A stretch of 35,787 bases of DNA from Gemmatimonadota bacterium (GTDB lineage: Bacteria; Gemmatimonadota; Gemmatimonadetes; Longimicrobiales; Gaopeijiaceae). Below the pieces are notes generated by a model. The model had not been told where the DNA came from, ran no database searches, and was given only the letters and a program-made list of their open reading frames with translations. The stretch is from contig JADFRS010000019.1 in NCBI GenBank assembly GCA_022561145.1, positions 1 through 35,787 of the forward strand, in the 5' to 3' direction. Both the position numbers and the translations under genes were made by a program. This document shows positions 1,976 through 7,876 of this stretch, piece by piece. The stretch's first letter is position 1. Each line of letters begins with the position of its first letter.

Positions 1976-2008
1976 GGGAAGACTCCTTATCAGGTTTTAT
2001 TGACTGAA

Positions 2009-2026
2009 TGTCAGGATAACCTTACA
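2009..2026. promoter_or_regulatory. Operator-like palindrome 1 (TGTCAGG-N4-CCTTACA)
   Basis: Half-sites TGTCAGG and TGTAAGG (reverse complement of CCTTACA) agree at 6 of 7 positions around a 4-bp centre. The site covers the -10 region of the minus-strand promoter. I infer a binding site for the XRE regulator encoded by the same operon. Confidence 0.5.
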
Positions 2027-2047
2027 CAAAGAAGCGGCGGGTGTCAA
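2019..2047 (-). promoter_or_regulatory. Promoter of the hydrolase/membrane protein/XRE operon
   Basis: On the minus strand a perfect -35 TTGACA (2042-2047) is followed after exactly 17 bp by TAAGGT (2019-2024) as -10. The AAGGAG ribosome site and the ATG at 1975 follow at a normal distance. Both promoter boxes sit inside the palindromes listed separately. Confidence 0.6.
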
Positions 2048-2059
2048 GTAGACCTGACT
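2042..2059. promoter_or_regulatory. Operator-like palindrome 2 (TGTCAAG-N4-CCTGACT)
   Basis: Same 7-4-7 layout as palindrome 1, with half-sites TGTCAAG and AGTCAGG. It covers the -35 box. Its centre is 33 bp from that of palindrome 1, about three helical turns, so two dimers would bind the same DNA face. Confidence 0.5.
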
Positions 2060-2063
2060 TTTC

Positions 2064-2845
2064 ATGAGGCGAGAGGCGTTGCCGTTGTTCAGCATTTGGC
2101 TGCGGCGCGCGCGCCGCCGTTGGGGTCGGGTGGGGCCGTTGCTGGTCTGGGTGAGGGCGGTGGTCGATCTCCTCGGCGCGCATATCGGTGCCCGCCGAGG
2201 AGCGGCTCGTAAGACTGACGGAGGAGAGGTGATGGGACAGCTTTGGGATGAGGTTCGTCTGGCCGTGCGCACGTTGATCGCGACGCCCGGGTTTTCGCTC
2301 GTCGTCATCGTAACCCTGGCCCTGGGGATCGGCGCCAACACGGCAATCTTCAGCGTGGTGAACGGAGTGCTCCTCCGGGCGTTGCCGTACGAGGATCCGG
2401 AGGATCTGGGCCTCGTCCCTTCTCGACCTACGTGGAGGACCAGCTCGCGCCGACGGAGTTCGCGCTGCTTCTCGTAGCGATCTTCGCCGGGGTGGCGCTC
2501 GTGCTGGCATCGGTGGGCCTCTACGGAGTGATCGCCTACACCGTGCGTCAACGTACGGCCGAACTCGGAGTCCGCATGGCCTTCGGTGCAGAGCCTGGAG
2601 CGATCCTCCGGCTGGTGCTCAAGCACGGGCTGTCCCTGACCGCCGTGGGCCTGATCGTCGGTCTCGCGACTTCTCTCCTCGCGACACGGGCTCTGTCTGG
2701 GCTGCTCTTTGGCGTCGACACCTTCGACCCGCGTACCTTCGCCGCTCTGACCCTACTCTTGGCCGCGGTGGCGTTCTGTGCCTGCTGGGTTCCGGCCCGC
2801 AGAGCGACACGGATGGACCCGGCAGAAGTCCTCCGGGGCGATTAG
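2064..2845 (+). pseudogene. ADOP-family FtsX-like ABC permease, internal deletion
   Basis: Two ends of one ADOP permease remain. The first part (to about 2415) ends in the membrane start typical of this family, [20 protein letters not shown] followed by [16 protein letters not shown]. The second, in another frame from about 2420, begins [19 protein letters not shown] and carries the last FtsX transmembrane bundle to the usual terminal DPAEVLRGD. The macB-like periplasmic domain and the second and third helix groups, about 500-600 residues in intact members, are missing. The join lies near 2410-2425 and changes the frame. A single functional protein is unlikely. Intact ADOP genes are common in Acidobacteriota and Gemmatimonadota, which is part of the taxonomic argument. 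Confidence 0.85.
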
Positions 2846-2972: not shown

Positions 2973-5228
2973 CTACCGCGGACCGGGAGGCAGGTGCGTA
3001 AGCAGATATCGCACCATGAGCATCCGCACGTGCAGCGACGTGCCCTCCCCCTCTCGGAGACCGTGGTTGCGGTTGGGATAGGCCATGTAGTCGAATGACT
3101 TGCCCAACTCAATGAGACGATCCACCAGCCCCTCCGTGATCTCGAGGTGGGTGTTGGTCTCCCCCGTGCCGTGGATGATCAGGAGGTCCCCCTTCAGGCC
3201 TTTGGCGAAGTTGATTGGGGCGGACCGGCGGTATCCCTCGGGGTTTTCCTCGCGGGTCCGCATGTAGATTTCCTGGAACCACGCATTGTAGAGATGCGGC
3301 TGCGGTTTGGGTGCCACAGCGATCCCTAGGTGATAGACATCCGGCTTCCGGAACATGGCGTTGAGTGTATTCGAGCCACCGCCGCTCCAACCCCAGATGC
3401 CCACCCGGGATAGATCGACGTACGGTCGTGTACGAGCCAGCTCCTGTAGACCCGCCGCTTGCTCTTCGGTCGATAGCGGGCCGAGGCTGCCGAACACCGC
3501 CCGCCGCCACGCGGCCCCTTTGGGCGCCGGCGTGCCACGGGTGTCCATACACACCACGAGATACCCGAGGTCGGCGATCACGCGATGGAAGTGGGCGTGG
3601 CTGCGGGCCCACTGGTCCAATACGTCCTGTGCGTGCGGCTCCGAGTATTGGTACACGAAGACGGGATACCTCCGGGACGGATCGAAGTCGCGGGGTTTGA
3701 TCATCCACGCGTCCATCACCACGCCGCCGCCGATATCGAGCTGGAGAAACTCGGTGGGCCCAGAGATCAACGACTCCGCCCTGTTGCGCAGCTCGTCATT
3801 GTCTTCGAGGACGCGCACCACCCGGTGCTCCGGCAGCTGTACCAGCTCGGTGACCGGGGGCGTGTCGAACGTCGAGTAGGTATGGAACGCCCATCTGGCG
3901 TCGGGCGAGAAATCGTAATTGTGCGTGCCGGGTTGGTCCGCGGGGGTAACCCGTTCGGGCTCTCGGGTGCCGTCCAACGGCACGCGATAGAGATACCGCT
4001 GGGTCGCATTGTCAGGGGAAGCGAGGTAGTAGAATCGGCCTCCCGCTTCGTCCACCATGCCGCGTTCGATGATGTCGAAGGCTCCGGGCGTTAGGAGAGC
4101 CTGCTCCTCTCCGTCGCGCGAGACGACATAGGCGTGGCGCCAGCCGTCCTTTTCGCTCAGCAATACGAACGCGCGACCCCCGTGGATCCACTCCAGGCCG
4201 CTATTCAACCGGTAGCTCGCAACAACCCACGCAGGATCGGATTCGTGGTACATGCGGGTCACCGCACCGGTGCGGACGTCGGCAATGAGGAACTCACGTT
4301 CATCCCGACCACGGCTCCTCCATTCCACCAGCAGTTCCTGTGAATTCGTGGCCCAGTCGACCGGTCCGAGGTAGAATCCCTCGGCTGGGGCGGGAAGCGA
4401 GAGCCACAGCGGCTCGCCTCCCTGGGCATCGACTACGCCAACACGCAAAGTCGCAATCGTCTCGCCTACCCTGGCAAAGCGGACTTCTGTGAACCCTCTA
4501 TACGATGGATCGCCCGGGACGAGCATCGCCCGCAACCGGACCTCGGACACGTCCGACTGTACGTAGGCGATCCGCCTTCCGTCGGGACTCCACACAGCGC
4601 GACTGTTCGACACCGACCCCACGGCCCCGTCCGTGGTGAGCGGAATCGTCCGGTCGAGACTCAGATCGTAGACATGCAGGTTGCCCCGATCAGCGTACAG
4701 GAAGCGTTGCCCGTCCGGTGAAATGCTGTTGTCCATGCCACCCCCACCGACGCCTGCAACGACTCGGCGAAGCGTCCCTGAACTCCGCTCCAGAATCCAG
4801 TAGTCGTTTACGCTGTTTCCCGCCTCGCGCCTACTCGCCTGCAGCAGCAGCCGGTCGCCGTCCGGCATCAGGGCGTAGTCTTCAATGGCAAGGGGGTCGG
4901 TCGCGCCCGGAGGAACGAGTTGCGACCGTGAGGCCAGCACGGTGCGTTCGCCGCTGGCCGCATCATAGCGTACCAGTTCTCGTGCATTCGTCCCGGGCGC
5001 CGGCTCCAGCATGGTGTAGCCCGAACCGTCCCGGAGCCATGTGGCTCGAAAGGATCGCGGATTGAATTCCCCGCGCTCGTAGATCGCTCGGAGTCGTGCT
5101 TCGGCTTCGGCTGGGACCTGGGCGGAGGCATCGACGCCTTGAAGCGTGAGTACGGCTGCGATACCGGCCAGACAGAGACACGGCGTGATCCTTCTCTTCA
5201 GCAATGTTCTAGGCTCTGTGAAGATCAT
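2973..5228 (-). CDS. S9 family (DPP IV-like) prolyl oligopeptidase with altered triad
   Basis: 751 residues. A signal peptide (ITPCLCLAGIAAVLTLQGVDASAQ) is followed by a beta-propeller domain of the DPP IV N-terminal type (about residues 60-490; repeats such as ISPDGQRFLYADRGNLHVYD and WSPDGRRIAYVQ). The C-terminal peptidase S9 domain has the nucleophile in GWSGGG (Ser at about 615; the family usually has GWSYGG) and a histidine in NRNHGLREG (about 722). Where DPP IV enzymes have DDN with the catalytic Asp, this protein reads HGTGETNTHLE, so Thr at about 691 occupies the Asp position. It may be a divergent subfamily using another acid, or inactive. No strong ribosome site precedes the ATG. 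It is divergent from the GH95 gene. Confidence 0.85.
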   Translation of the reverse strand: MIFTEPRTLLKRRITPCLCLAGIAAVLTLQGVDASAQVPAEAEARLRAIYERGEFNPRSFRATWLRDGSGYTMLEPAPGTNARELVRYDAASGERTVLASRSQLVPPGATDPLAIEDYALMPDGDRLLLQASRREAGNSVNDYWILERSSGTLRRVVAGVGGGGMDNSISPDGQRFLYADRGNLHVYDLSLDRTIPLTTDGAVGSVSNSRAVWSPDGRRIAYVQSDVSEVRLRAMLVPGDPSYRGFTEVRFARVGETIATLRVGVVDAQGGEPLWLSLPAPAEGFYLGPVDWATNSQELLVEWRSRGRDEREFLIADVRTGAVTRMYHESDPAWVVASYRLNSGLEWIHGGRAFVLLSEKDGWRHAYVVSRDGEEQALLTPGAFDIIERGMVDEAGGRFYYLASPDNATQRYLYRVPLDGTREPERVTPADQPGTHNYDFSPDARWAFHTYSTFDTPPVTELVQLPEHRVVRVLEDNDELRNRAESLISGPTEFLQLDIGGGVVMDAWMIKPRDFDPSRRYPVFVYQYSEPHAQDVLDQWARSHAHFHRVIADLGYLVVCMDTRGTPAPKGAAWRRAVFGSLGPLSTEEQAAGLQELARTRPYVDLSRVGIWGWSGGGSNTLNAMFRKPDVYHLGIAVAPKPQPHLYNAWFQEIYMRTREENPEGYRRSAPINFAKGLKGDLLIIHGTGETNTHLEITEGLVDRLIELGKSFDYMAYPNRNHGLREGEGTSLHVRMLMVRYLLTHLPPGPR

Positions 5229-5428: not shown

Positions 5429-7876
5429 GTGCATCCGCACACCGTGTCTTCGATCACCACCGCGGCCGCGCTCATGCTCTTGGCCGCCCCGGCGCATGCG
5501 CAGGACAATCCCGCATCGCCGCTCAAGCTCTGGTACGACGAGCCCGCGTCAGCCTGGAATCAGGCGCTCCCGGTGGGGAACGGCCGCCTCGGTGCCATGA
5601 TCTTCGGTGGCGTCGAGCGGGAGCGCATCCAACTGAACGAAGAGACCCTCTGGTCAGGAGGGCCGTACGACCCCGTCGTCGCGGGGGCGCACGAGGCTCT
5701 GCCCCGGATCCGCGACTACCTCTTCGATGGGGACTTCGTGCGGGCTCACGACCTCTTCGGACGCACAATGATGGGTGTGCCCTACGAGATGATGAAGTAC
5801 CAGCCGTTCGCGGACCTTTGGCTGGACTTCCCGGGCCATGAAGGCGCGACGGATTACAGGAGGGAGCTCGATCTGAGGGACGGCGTGGCCCGGGTGAGTT
5901 ACGTGGTCGACGGGACTACCTATCTTCGCGAGGTGTTCTCAAGCGCCGTGGATCAGGTGGTGGTAGTCCGCATCACGGCCGACCGCCCCGGTGCTGTGAC
6001 CTTCTCCGCGAACCTGCACGGGGTGAGGAACCCCGCGCACTCCAACTACGGCACAGACTACTTCCTCATGGACGGGATCCCTCCGGGGGATCTCCGGGTC
6101 ACTGGAAAGAGCTCCGACTACCTGGGCATCGAGGGCCGCCTGCGCTACGAGGGACGCGTCCGGGCGAGAGTGAGCGGCGGGACCACCGAGGTGGACTATC
6201 GCACCCTCCACGTGCGGGACGCCGACGAGGCAGTCCTCGTGTTCGCAGCGGCTACGAGCTTCGTCGACTACCGGAACGTGTCGGCAAGTCCGGCTGAACG
6301 CGTGCAAGCTGCGCTTTCCAACGTTCGTGACCGCAGTTGGGATGCGATGCGAACCGATCACGTACGCGAGCACCGCTCCTGGTTCGATCGGGTAGAGCTG
6401 ACCCTCGGAGCCCCCGCCGCGGCTGGGCCGAGCTTGCCCACGGATGAGCGCATCGAGCGCTTCGCCGACAACCCCGATCCCGGCCTGGCAGCGCTCTACT
6501 ACCAGTTCGGTCGGTATCTGCTCATCGCAAGCTCCCGGCCGGGCACCCAGCCCGCCAATCTCCAGGGGATCTGGAACGACAACCCAAACCCGTCGTGGGA
6601 CAGCAAGTACACCATCAACATCAACCTGCCGATGAACTACTGGCCCGCCGAGACGGGCAACTTGCAAGAACTTGTGCAGCCTCTGGAGCGCTTCACCTAC
6701 GAGGTGGCCGAGGCAGGCGCGGCCACGGCCCGGGAGCACTGGAACGCACGCGGATGGGTGCTGCACCAGAATACCGACCTGTGGCGGGCCACCACCCCCA
6801 TGGACGGTCCTTCGTGGGGTGCGTGGCCCGTGGGCGGGGCGTGGATCATGACGATCCTGTACGAGCACTACCGTTTCAGCCGAGACGAGGCCTACCTGGA
6901 GCGCATCTACCCGGCGCTCCGGGGGCAGACGCAGTTCCTCCTCGACATCCTCGTGGAGCATCCAGACTATGGATGGCTGGTCACGGCGCCCTCGAACTCG
7001 CCCGAGAATTTTCCCGCATGGCCGGGCAACGGACGCTTCTTCGACGAAGTGAGTGGGCTTTTTCTCAAGGCGCGCACCATGGCCGCGGGCCCGACCATGG
7101 ACATGCAGATCATCCGTGAGGTCTTCGCCGAGTTCGTCGAAGCCGCTTCTATTCTGGGCATGGACGGTGAGCTCGCCGCAGAGGCGAACGCGGCCCGCTC
7201 GCGATTGGCACCGAACCAGATCGGGAAACACGGCCAGCTCCAGGAATGGATCGAGGATTACGACGAGATCGAGCCCGAACACAGACACCTCTCTCACCTC
7301 TGGGGCCTTTACCCCGGCAGCGAGATCACCGCGGCCTCTGGTGATCTGACGCGCGCGGCCGCTGTCTCCCTCGACCGGCGCGGCACGGGCGGATGCGGAT
7401 GGTCGTACGGCTGGAAGATGGGTCTGCGAGCTCGGCTCCTGGACGGCGAAAAGGCGCTCCTACAGCTGCGTGCGCTCCTCACTGAATCGTCGCTTCCCAA
7501 CTTCTTCTCGCTTTGCTCAGGAGTACTCCAGGTAGACGGCAACTTCGGCGCGACCGCCAGCATCGCCGAGATGCTGCTCCAATCACAGAACGGCATGATC
7601 CGGCTTCTTCCAGCGCTTCCGTCCGAGTGGTCACAGGGAAGCGTCAACGGGCTCAGGGCCCGGGGCGGGTTCACGGTGTCCATGAGGTGGACGGACGGAT
7701 CGCTGATGGAGGCCGGCCTCGAGGCGTCGGTGGACGGGCCCTGCCGAGTCGTGGCCGAGGGTCTGACGGCCGTGCTCTCGGAGGGGCGCACCATTCCCCT
7801 CACCCTCACCGCCGACGGCAGCTTCCAGTTCGAAGCTCACGCCGGTTTCAGTTACCAACTGATGTTCGAAGGATGA
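5429..7876 (+). CDS. GH95 family glycoside hydrolase (alpha-L-fucosidase type)
   Basis: 815 residues, the normal length for GH95. The start is the GTG at 5429, with GAGG about 8 nt upstream; it gives a signal peptide (ALMLLAAPAHAQ) so the enzyme is exported. Family signatures in order: LKLWYDEPASAWNQALPVGNGRLG and QLNEETLWSGGPYDP at the N-terminal beta-domain, NLQGIWNDNPNPSWDSKYT and INLPMNYWPAETGNL (with Asn 397 and Asn 399 in NIN, the motif that holds the catalytic asparagines in characterised members), APSNSPEN, GPTMDMQIIRE, HLSHLWGLYPG, and a late QVDGNFGATASIAEMLLQS block. GH95 enzymes release L-fucose, or L-galactose in some subgroups, from glycan ends by inversion. Exact specificity cannot be read here. 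Confidence 0.93.
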   Translation: MHPHTVSSITTAAALMLLAAPAHAQDNPASPLKLWYDEPASAWNQALPVGNGRLGAMIFGGVERERIQLNEETLWSGGPYDPVVAGAHEALPRIRDYLFDGDFVRAHDLFGRTMMGVPYEMMKYQPFADLWLDFPGHEGATDYRRELDLRDGVARVSYVVDGTTYLREVFSSAVDQVVVVRITADRPGAVTFSANLHGVRNPAHSNYGTDYFLMDGIPPGDLRVTGKSSDYLGIEGRLRYEGRVRARVSGGTTEVDYRTLHVRDADEAVLVFAAATSFVDYRNVSASPAERVQAALSNVRDRSWDAMRTDHVREHRSWFDRVELTLGAPAAAGPSLPTDERIERFADNPDPGLAALYYQFGRYLLIASSRPGTQPANLQGIWNDNPNPSWDSKYTININLPMNYWPAETGNLQELVQPLERFTYEVAEAGAATAREHWNARGWVLHQNTDLWRATTPMDGPSWGAWPVGGAWIMTILYEHYRFSRDEAYLERIYPALRGQTQFLLDILVEHPDYGWLVTAPSNSPENFPAWPGNGRFFDEVSGLFLKARTMAAGPTMDMQIIREVFAEFVEAASILGMDGELAAEANAARSRLAPNQIGKHGQLQEWIEDYDEIEPEHRHLSHLWGLYPGSEITAASGDLTRAAAVSLDRRGTGGCGWSYGWKMGLRARLLDGEKALLQLRALLTESSLPNFFSLCSGVLQVDGNFGATASIAEMLLQSQNGMIRLLPALPSEWSQGSVNGLRARGGFTVSMRWTDGSLMEAGLEASVDGPCRVVAEGLTAVLSEGRTIPLTLTADGSFQFEAHAGFSYQLMFEG

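Follow-up and report, generated by a model that had tools for sequence, protein, structure and literature searches.

The window, a stretch of 35,787 nucleotides from a Gemmatimonadota bacterium, carries a three-gene operon whose promoter is overlaid by palindromes of the same build, and the question raised by this locus is which regulator these palindromes serve and whether the arrangement extends beyond one genome. The sequence-only reading had placed two palindromes at 2009-2059, one over a TTGACA -35 and the other over the -10 of the operon. In our in silico analysis, their letters are exactly as it gave them and their centres are 33 bp apart; the right half of operator O1 is indeed TTGACA and a -10 hexamer does lie inside O2 (Table 1). 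This -10 is a weak match to the consensus, retaining T1, A2 and T6, and its weakness explains why a generic promoter scan gave no call for the promoter of the XRE operon. The number of palindromes has to be corrected, as both are present but a third operator, O3, had been overlooked exactly 21 bp past O2; in the window, it is a weak match to the site. Single matches with up to three mismatches are expected by chance (1.5 per window), against 0.12 with up to two mismatches, and none of 300 dinucleotide-preserving shuffles contained a pair of sites (two mismatches at most) lying 50 bp apart or less.

The three genes are tightly joined, as had also been claimed: the hydrolase and membrane-protein genes overlap by TGATG (1051-1047), and the latter overlaps the XRE gene by ATGA (654-651). 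P0001 is an HTH_3/XRE protein, whose residue 29 falls in the recognition helix (27-34) of the structure model. In P0003, S124 and H282 are invariant, leaving the Ser/His pair intact, and its counterparts in the Maricaulis and Glycocaulis copies of the operon share 47-54% identity with it. P0002 matches no Pfam family above cut-off and no PDB fold in a fold search; an Asp-Glu pair is invariant in its family.

Table 1. Features of the operon and of its promoter region, in positions of the window
Feature	Position	Strand	Remarks
Operator O1	2042..2059	-	AGTCAGG-TCTA-CTTGACA; + strand, TGTCAAG-TAGA-CCTGACT
-35 hexamer	2042..2047 (read 2047-2042)	-	TTGACA, perfect; within right half of O1
Operator O2	2009..2026	-	TGTAAGG-TTAT-CCTGACA; + strand, TGTCAGG-ATAA-CCTTACA
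-10 hexamer	2019..2024 (read 2024-2019)	-	TAAGGT; within left half of O2; 17-bp spacer from -35
Operator O3, weaker	1988..2005	-	AGTCAATAAAACCTGATA; abuts Shine-Dalgarno; based on the third site at +21 in homologous loci
Shine-Dalgarno	1988-1983	-	AAGGAG; adjoins O3
Exported alpha/beta hydrolase P0003	1049..1975	-	308 aa; first gene; signal peptide; nucleophile S124 in GHSIGG; H282
Membrane protein P0002	651..1049	-	132 aa; 4 predicted transmembrane helices; invariant D70-E71
XRE/CylR2-like repressor (predicted) P0001	448..654	-	68 aa; recognition helix ~27-34; specificity residue Ala29

The test set beforehand for the link of the palindromes to the XRE protein was whether they are conserved near operons orthologous to this one, and they clearly pass it. 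Among 101 loci encoding related XREs, taken from neighbouring genomes and from a public genome collection (80 loci), 94 have at least one upstream site, of the 18-bp form TGTMARG-N4-CYTKACA. The 80 public loci hold 206 upstream sites versus 23 in an equal length of DNA downstream of XRE, a density about nine times higher, and the membrane protein adjoins XRE in 73 of them. The loci span Pseudomonadota, Acidobacteriota, Chloroflexota, Balneolota, Krumholzibacteriota and Verrucomicrobiota. Because they are conserved at related loci, the palindromes of the window are almost certainly operators of its CylR2-like XRE repressor. In a more distant group of XREs with Ser29 (L055, L056 and L059), two near-perfect TGTMAAG-N4-CTTGACA sites lie 41-47 bp apart directly before the XRE gene; the operator therefore reaches past the sampled family.

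A promoter design is likewise common to the relatives. On the operon strand, the last six letters of O1 are nearly always TTGACA, and when 68 homologous promoters are aligned on this hexamer, an A is found at position 2 of the -10 in 52 of them, with a 17-bp spacer. In loci whose XRE has Ala29, a symmetrical palindrome would demand CTGACA, which is mostly present in O2, and O1 nevertheless ends in TTGACA in 23 of 26 pairs (Fisher p 3.5e-6; for this count, O1 was chosen by its position alone and not by its ending). One base of symmetry is therefore sacrificed to preserve the -35 box. The spacing between O1 and O2 is mostly 21, 32-34 or 40-41 bp (range 18-47 bp, some values being out of helical phase), so that O2 overlies the spacer, the -10 or the start. 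Of 55 loci, 41 (the window among them) have the third site exactly 21 bp past O2, and this fixed step of two helical turns suggests cooperative dimers.

Covariation between regulator and site was sought by an unbiased mutual-information scan that paired each column of the XRE alignment with each position of the half-site, and in which residue 29 and base 6 form the top pair (mutual information 0.88, shuffle z 41). In the discovery loci, Thr goes with A in 37/37 cases, Ser with A in 24/29 (T in the remaining ones) and Ala with G in 26/28, Thr and Ser together having A or T in 66/66, and the code holds inside families containing both residue types. These counts are not independent, as the XRE tree (66 columns, most forks unresolved) is too short for many supported events: it gives one supported independent event, or seven if unsupported branches are included. 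Held-out loci and within-genome paralogues were therefore used instead. The held-out loci came from additional genomes within the class to which Maricaulis belongs, and 21 of 23 were readable (L185 and L194 excluded). Sites are present in all 21; Ala goes with G in 4/5, base 6 being mostly T in the other Ala locus, and Thr or Ser with A in 16/16 (hypergeometric p about 8e-4). In six genomes that have both Ala and Thr/Ser paralogues, the operators differ correspondingly, with one of them (G463) showing T and G, not a clear G, in its Ala operator. One locus (L193) has Thr29 and base A together with His38, so that the effect of residue 29 can be told apart from that of residue 38, which co-varies with it. 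Judged from these alignments, residue 29 of the recognition helix predicts half-site base 6. The window follows the code: base 6 is G because residue 29 of its regulator is Ala, whereas the majority of the relatives combine Thr or Ser with A. Five Thr29 modules (L049, L050, L177, L182 and L183) have TGGAAAG half-sites, with G at position 3, which hints at a second specificity position.

The exact sites are nearly confined to the promoter of the module itself. In eight genomes, Ala-type sites are found nowhere else, and the Thr-type positions of 12 further genomes are, except two, also there. This distribution argues that the module is a local autoregulator and not a global one. In the genome of the window, the sole other exact operator-like site, TGTAAGG-TTGG-CTTGACA (C43:6342-6359; locus L145, 1501-1518), lies 65 bp upstream of a peroxiredoxin gene and is followed by a near-palindrome, TGTCAT-N5-ATGACA. 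This gene was considered as a further target and set aside, as the site is absent upstream of its relatives; it remains a lead only.

All these results are best accounted for, with a high degree of confidence, by a self-regulating repressor module coupled to a membrane protein, of the same kind as CylR1/CylR2, in which an XRE dimer on the operators would shut the operon. The self-repressing XRE/membrane-protein module proposed earlier thus stays the best reading, on the strength of operator conservation near orthologues. We infer that the 68-aa XRE binds the 18-bp palindromes as a dimer, so that occupancy of O1 would block the -35 and occupancy of O2 the -10 or start, while O3, two helical turns past O2, probably receives a cooperative second dimer. 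The entire operon, encoding the hydrolase, the 4-TM protein and the XRE, would thereby be held low. Repression is most likely lifted through the membrane protein, whose gene is translationally coupled to that of the repressor and which would respond to a signal in the envelope or outside the cell; the hydrolase would be a cargo that perhaps destroys the inducing compound. The pairing of Ala29 with G, and of Thr29 or Ser29 with A, would prevent cross-reaction between paralogous modules.

The sequence-only reading had presented the hydrolase as an undescribed partner; no paper describing the operator or the hydrolase association was found, in a literature search short of most subscription papers, but the association recurs in other bacteria and is not peculiar to one genome. 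The three-gene operon is also present in Maricaulis and Glycocaulis (Maricaulaceae) and in Luteibacter, with a partial copy in Hellea, and in sphingomonads, Caulobacter and others a related hydrolase is encoded on the downstream side of XRE. One possibility, compatible with the main explanation and concerning the role of the enzyme only, is that the hydrolase is an unrelated, interchangeable passenger and that the regulator/membrane pair is the unit; we consider it nearly as probable as its opposite. It agrees with the lack of hydrolase in 65 of the 80 sampled loci and with the situation in Maricaulis parjimensis (L067, 3472-3618), where the hydrolase is reduced to a 48-aa signal-peptide ORF while operators, membrane gene and XRE are intact. 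This loss indicates that the core consists of the repressor, the membrane protein and the operators. A mere passenger is less readily reconciled with the finding that 15 of the 80 loci (one weak distant match left out), across Alpha-, Beta- and Gammaproteobacteria, have a related hydrolase flanking the pair, be it upstream or downstream.

As for the origin of the operon, a survey of 395 genomes from the phylum to which the window belongs revealed no copy of it, and the XRE of the window groups with those of Maricaulaceae, with up to 84% identity; both points make it probable that the operon was acquired horizontally. Misbinning of the contig is possible but less likely. In base composition, a foreign origin of the operon is no longer visible. 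Hydrolase relatives in the own phylum (29-41% identical) were considered as members of the same module and rejected, having no XRE or operators nearby. Beside the operon, at 2064-2845 (+), lies the remnant of an ADOP-type duplicated permease, of whose 803 positions only the first ~62 and the last ~135 are left, split over two frames; this deletion remnant is perhaps a scar left by the insertion of the operon. Elsewhere in the window, a large secreted protein resembling, by eye, a GH95-type alpha-L-fucosidase is encoded at 5429-7876 (+), near an S9-type peptidase, also recognised by eye, at 2973-5228 (-).

Other explanations bear on the repression itself. The XRE could be an activator or a dual regulator, which would recruit polymerase at O1 and repress at O2 and O3. 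The C proteins of restriction-modification systems act both ways from tandem sites, and they have the same fold (1y7y is among the structural matches). We nevertheless hold such a role to be unlikely: the -35 lies inside O1 and not downstream of it, which favours occlusion over activation, and most promoters keep a perfect TTGACA, so that no activator seems required. Alternatively, the palindromes could serve another regulator, for instance one acting on the divergent permease gene, since O1 is 5 bp upstream of its ATG at 2064. This is very improbable, as the sites of the relatives precede the XRE operon and their sequence tracks residue 29 of the encoded XRE, TTGACA is retained on the operon strand, and the gene at 2064 is itself the truncated ADOP remnant. 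Finally, weak matches of the XRE to HipB and CapH and of one P0002 relative to S_4TM might point to a module of the type II toxin-antitoxin or defence sort, its regulator resembling HipB or CapH. This reading has hardly any standing, given that the XRE scores far below the HipB and HigA cut-offs (24.2 bits vs 79, and 16.9 vs 47.7), that no toxin family is found among the neighbours of the XRE in the window, that P0002 and P0003 match no PADLOC model, and that the partner genes encode a 4-TM protein and a secreted hydrolase whose Ser/His pair is intact.

The membrane-coupled autorepressor can then be set beside known systems, of which the enterococcal CylR1/CylR2 is the closest described. The regulator pair of the sequence-only reading stands as an XRE/membrane-protein module, with the correction that it resembles this described pair. 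CylR1 and CylR2 of Enterococcus faecalis regulate a lantibiotic operon that diverges from them; the repressor CylR2 binds to the promoter region on which it acts, CylR1 has three predicted TM helices, and the relay of a signal from the membrane protein to the repressor is a proposal (PMC3709268). Bib1R1/Bib1R2 of Bacillus thuringiensis are named with them as the nearest systems (PMC11343131). P0001 has the length (~66 residues) and the fold of CylR2 (TM-score of the model 0.84-0.86; profile E 6e-21), a small membrane-protein gene adjoins the XRE gene in both systems, and the operator palindromes apparently overlap the controlled promoter, as in the CylR1/CylR2 type. In contrast, the pair of the window lies inside the operon that it apparently controls, with an alpha/beta hydrolase as first gene, whereas the genes controlled by the CylR pair make a two-component lantibiotic that acts as the inducer and the window operon encodes hydrolase, membrane protein and XRE. 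P0002 has four predicted helices versus three in CylR1, the two being compared by helix count alone, and the window module has three operators with a fixed 21-bp step between O2 and O3.

The closest solved structure is DR_2454 of Deinococcus radiodurans (PDB 9k3w, 'PbsX family'), with 66% identity and 0.6 A rmsd over 59 residues to the P0001 model; no paper on its function was found. It differs by a Thr at the position of Ala29, for which the code predicts TGTMAAG half-sites. The lambdoid triple operators (lambda OR1-OR3, P22 c2) are similar in that several palindromes are bound by an HTH dimer across a promoter, and P22 c2-DNA complexes are among the structural neighbours of the P0001 model. 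The window module is not a member of this group, however, having one promoter, one repressor and a chromosomal operon, with neither a Cro partner nor a cleavage domain.

The CylR1/CylR2 kind is already known; in the literature searched, we found no description of the triple operator, of the code linking residue to base or of the hydrolase branch. Our broader proposal is a tentative one: these modules could make up a widespread class of autorepressors coupled to a membrane protein, represented in five phyla or more. Its members would share a promoter layout, with O1 over the -35, O2 over the -10 or start and O3 at +21 bp; one residue of the recognition helix would fix base 6 and allow several paralogues to coexist in one cell without crosstalk; and in the hydrolase branch, the secreted enzyme would destroy the inducer and close the loop. 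Small XRE/membrane-protein pairs are common, yet hardly any work seems to have been done on those other than CylR1/CylR2. The triple operator and the one-residue/one-base code would make such modules recognisable from sequence and their targets predictable, these being nearly always their own promoters. The modules thus offer simple reporters for what their membrane proteins sense, and the code provides a direct test of insulation among paralogous HTH repressors.
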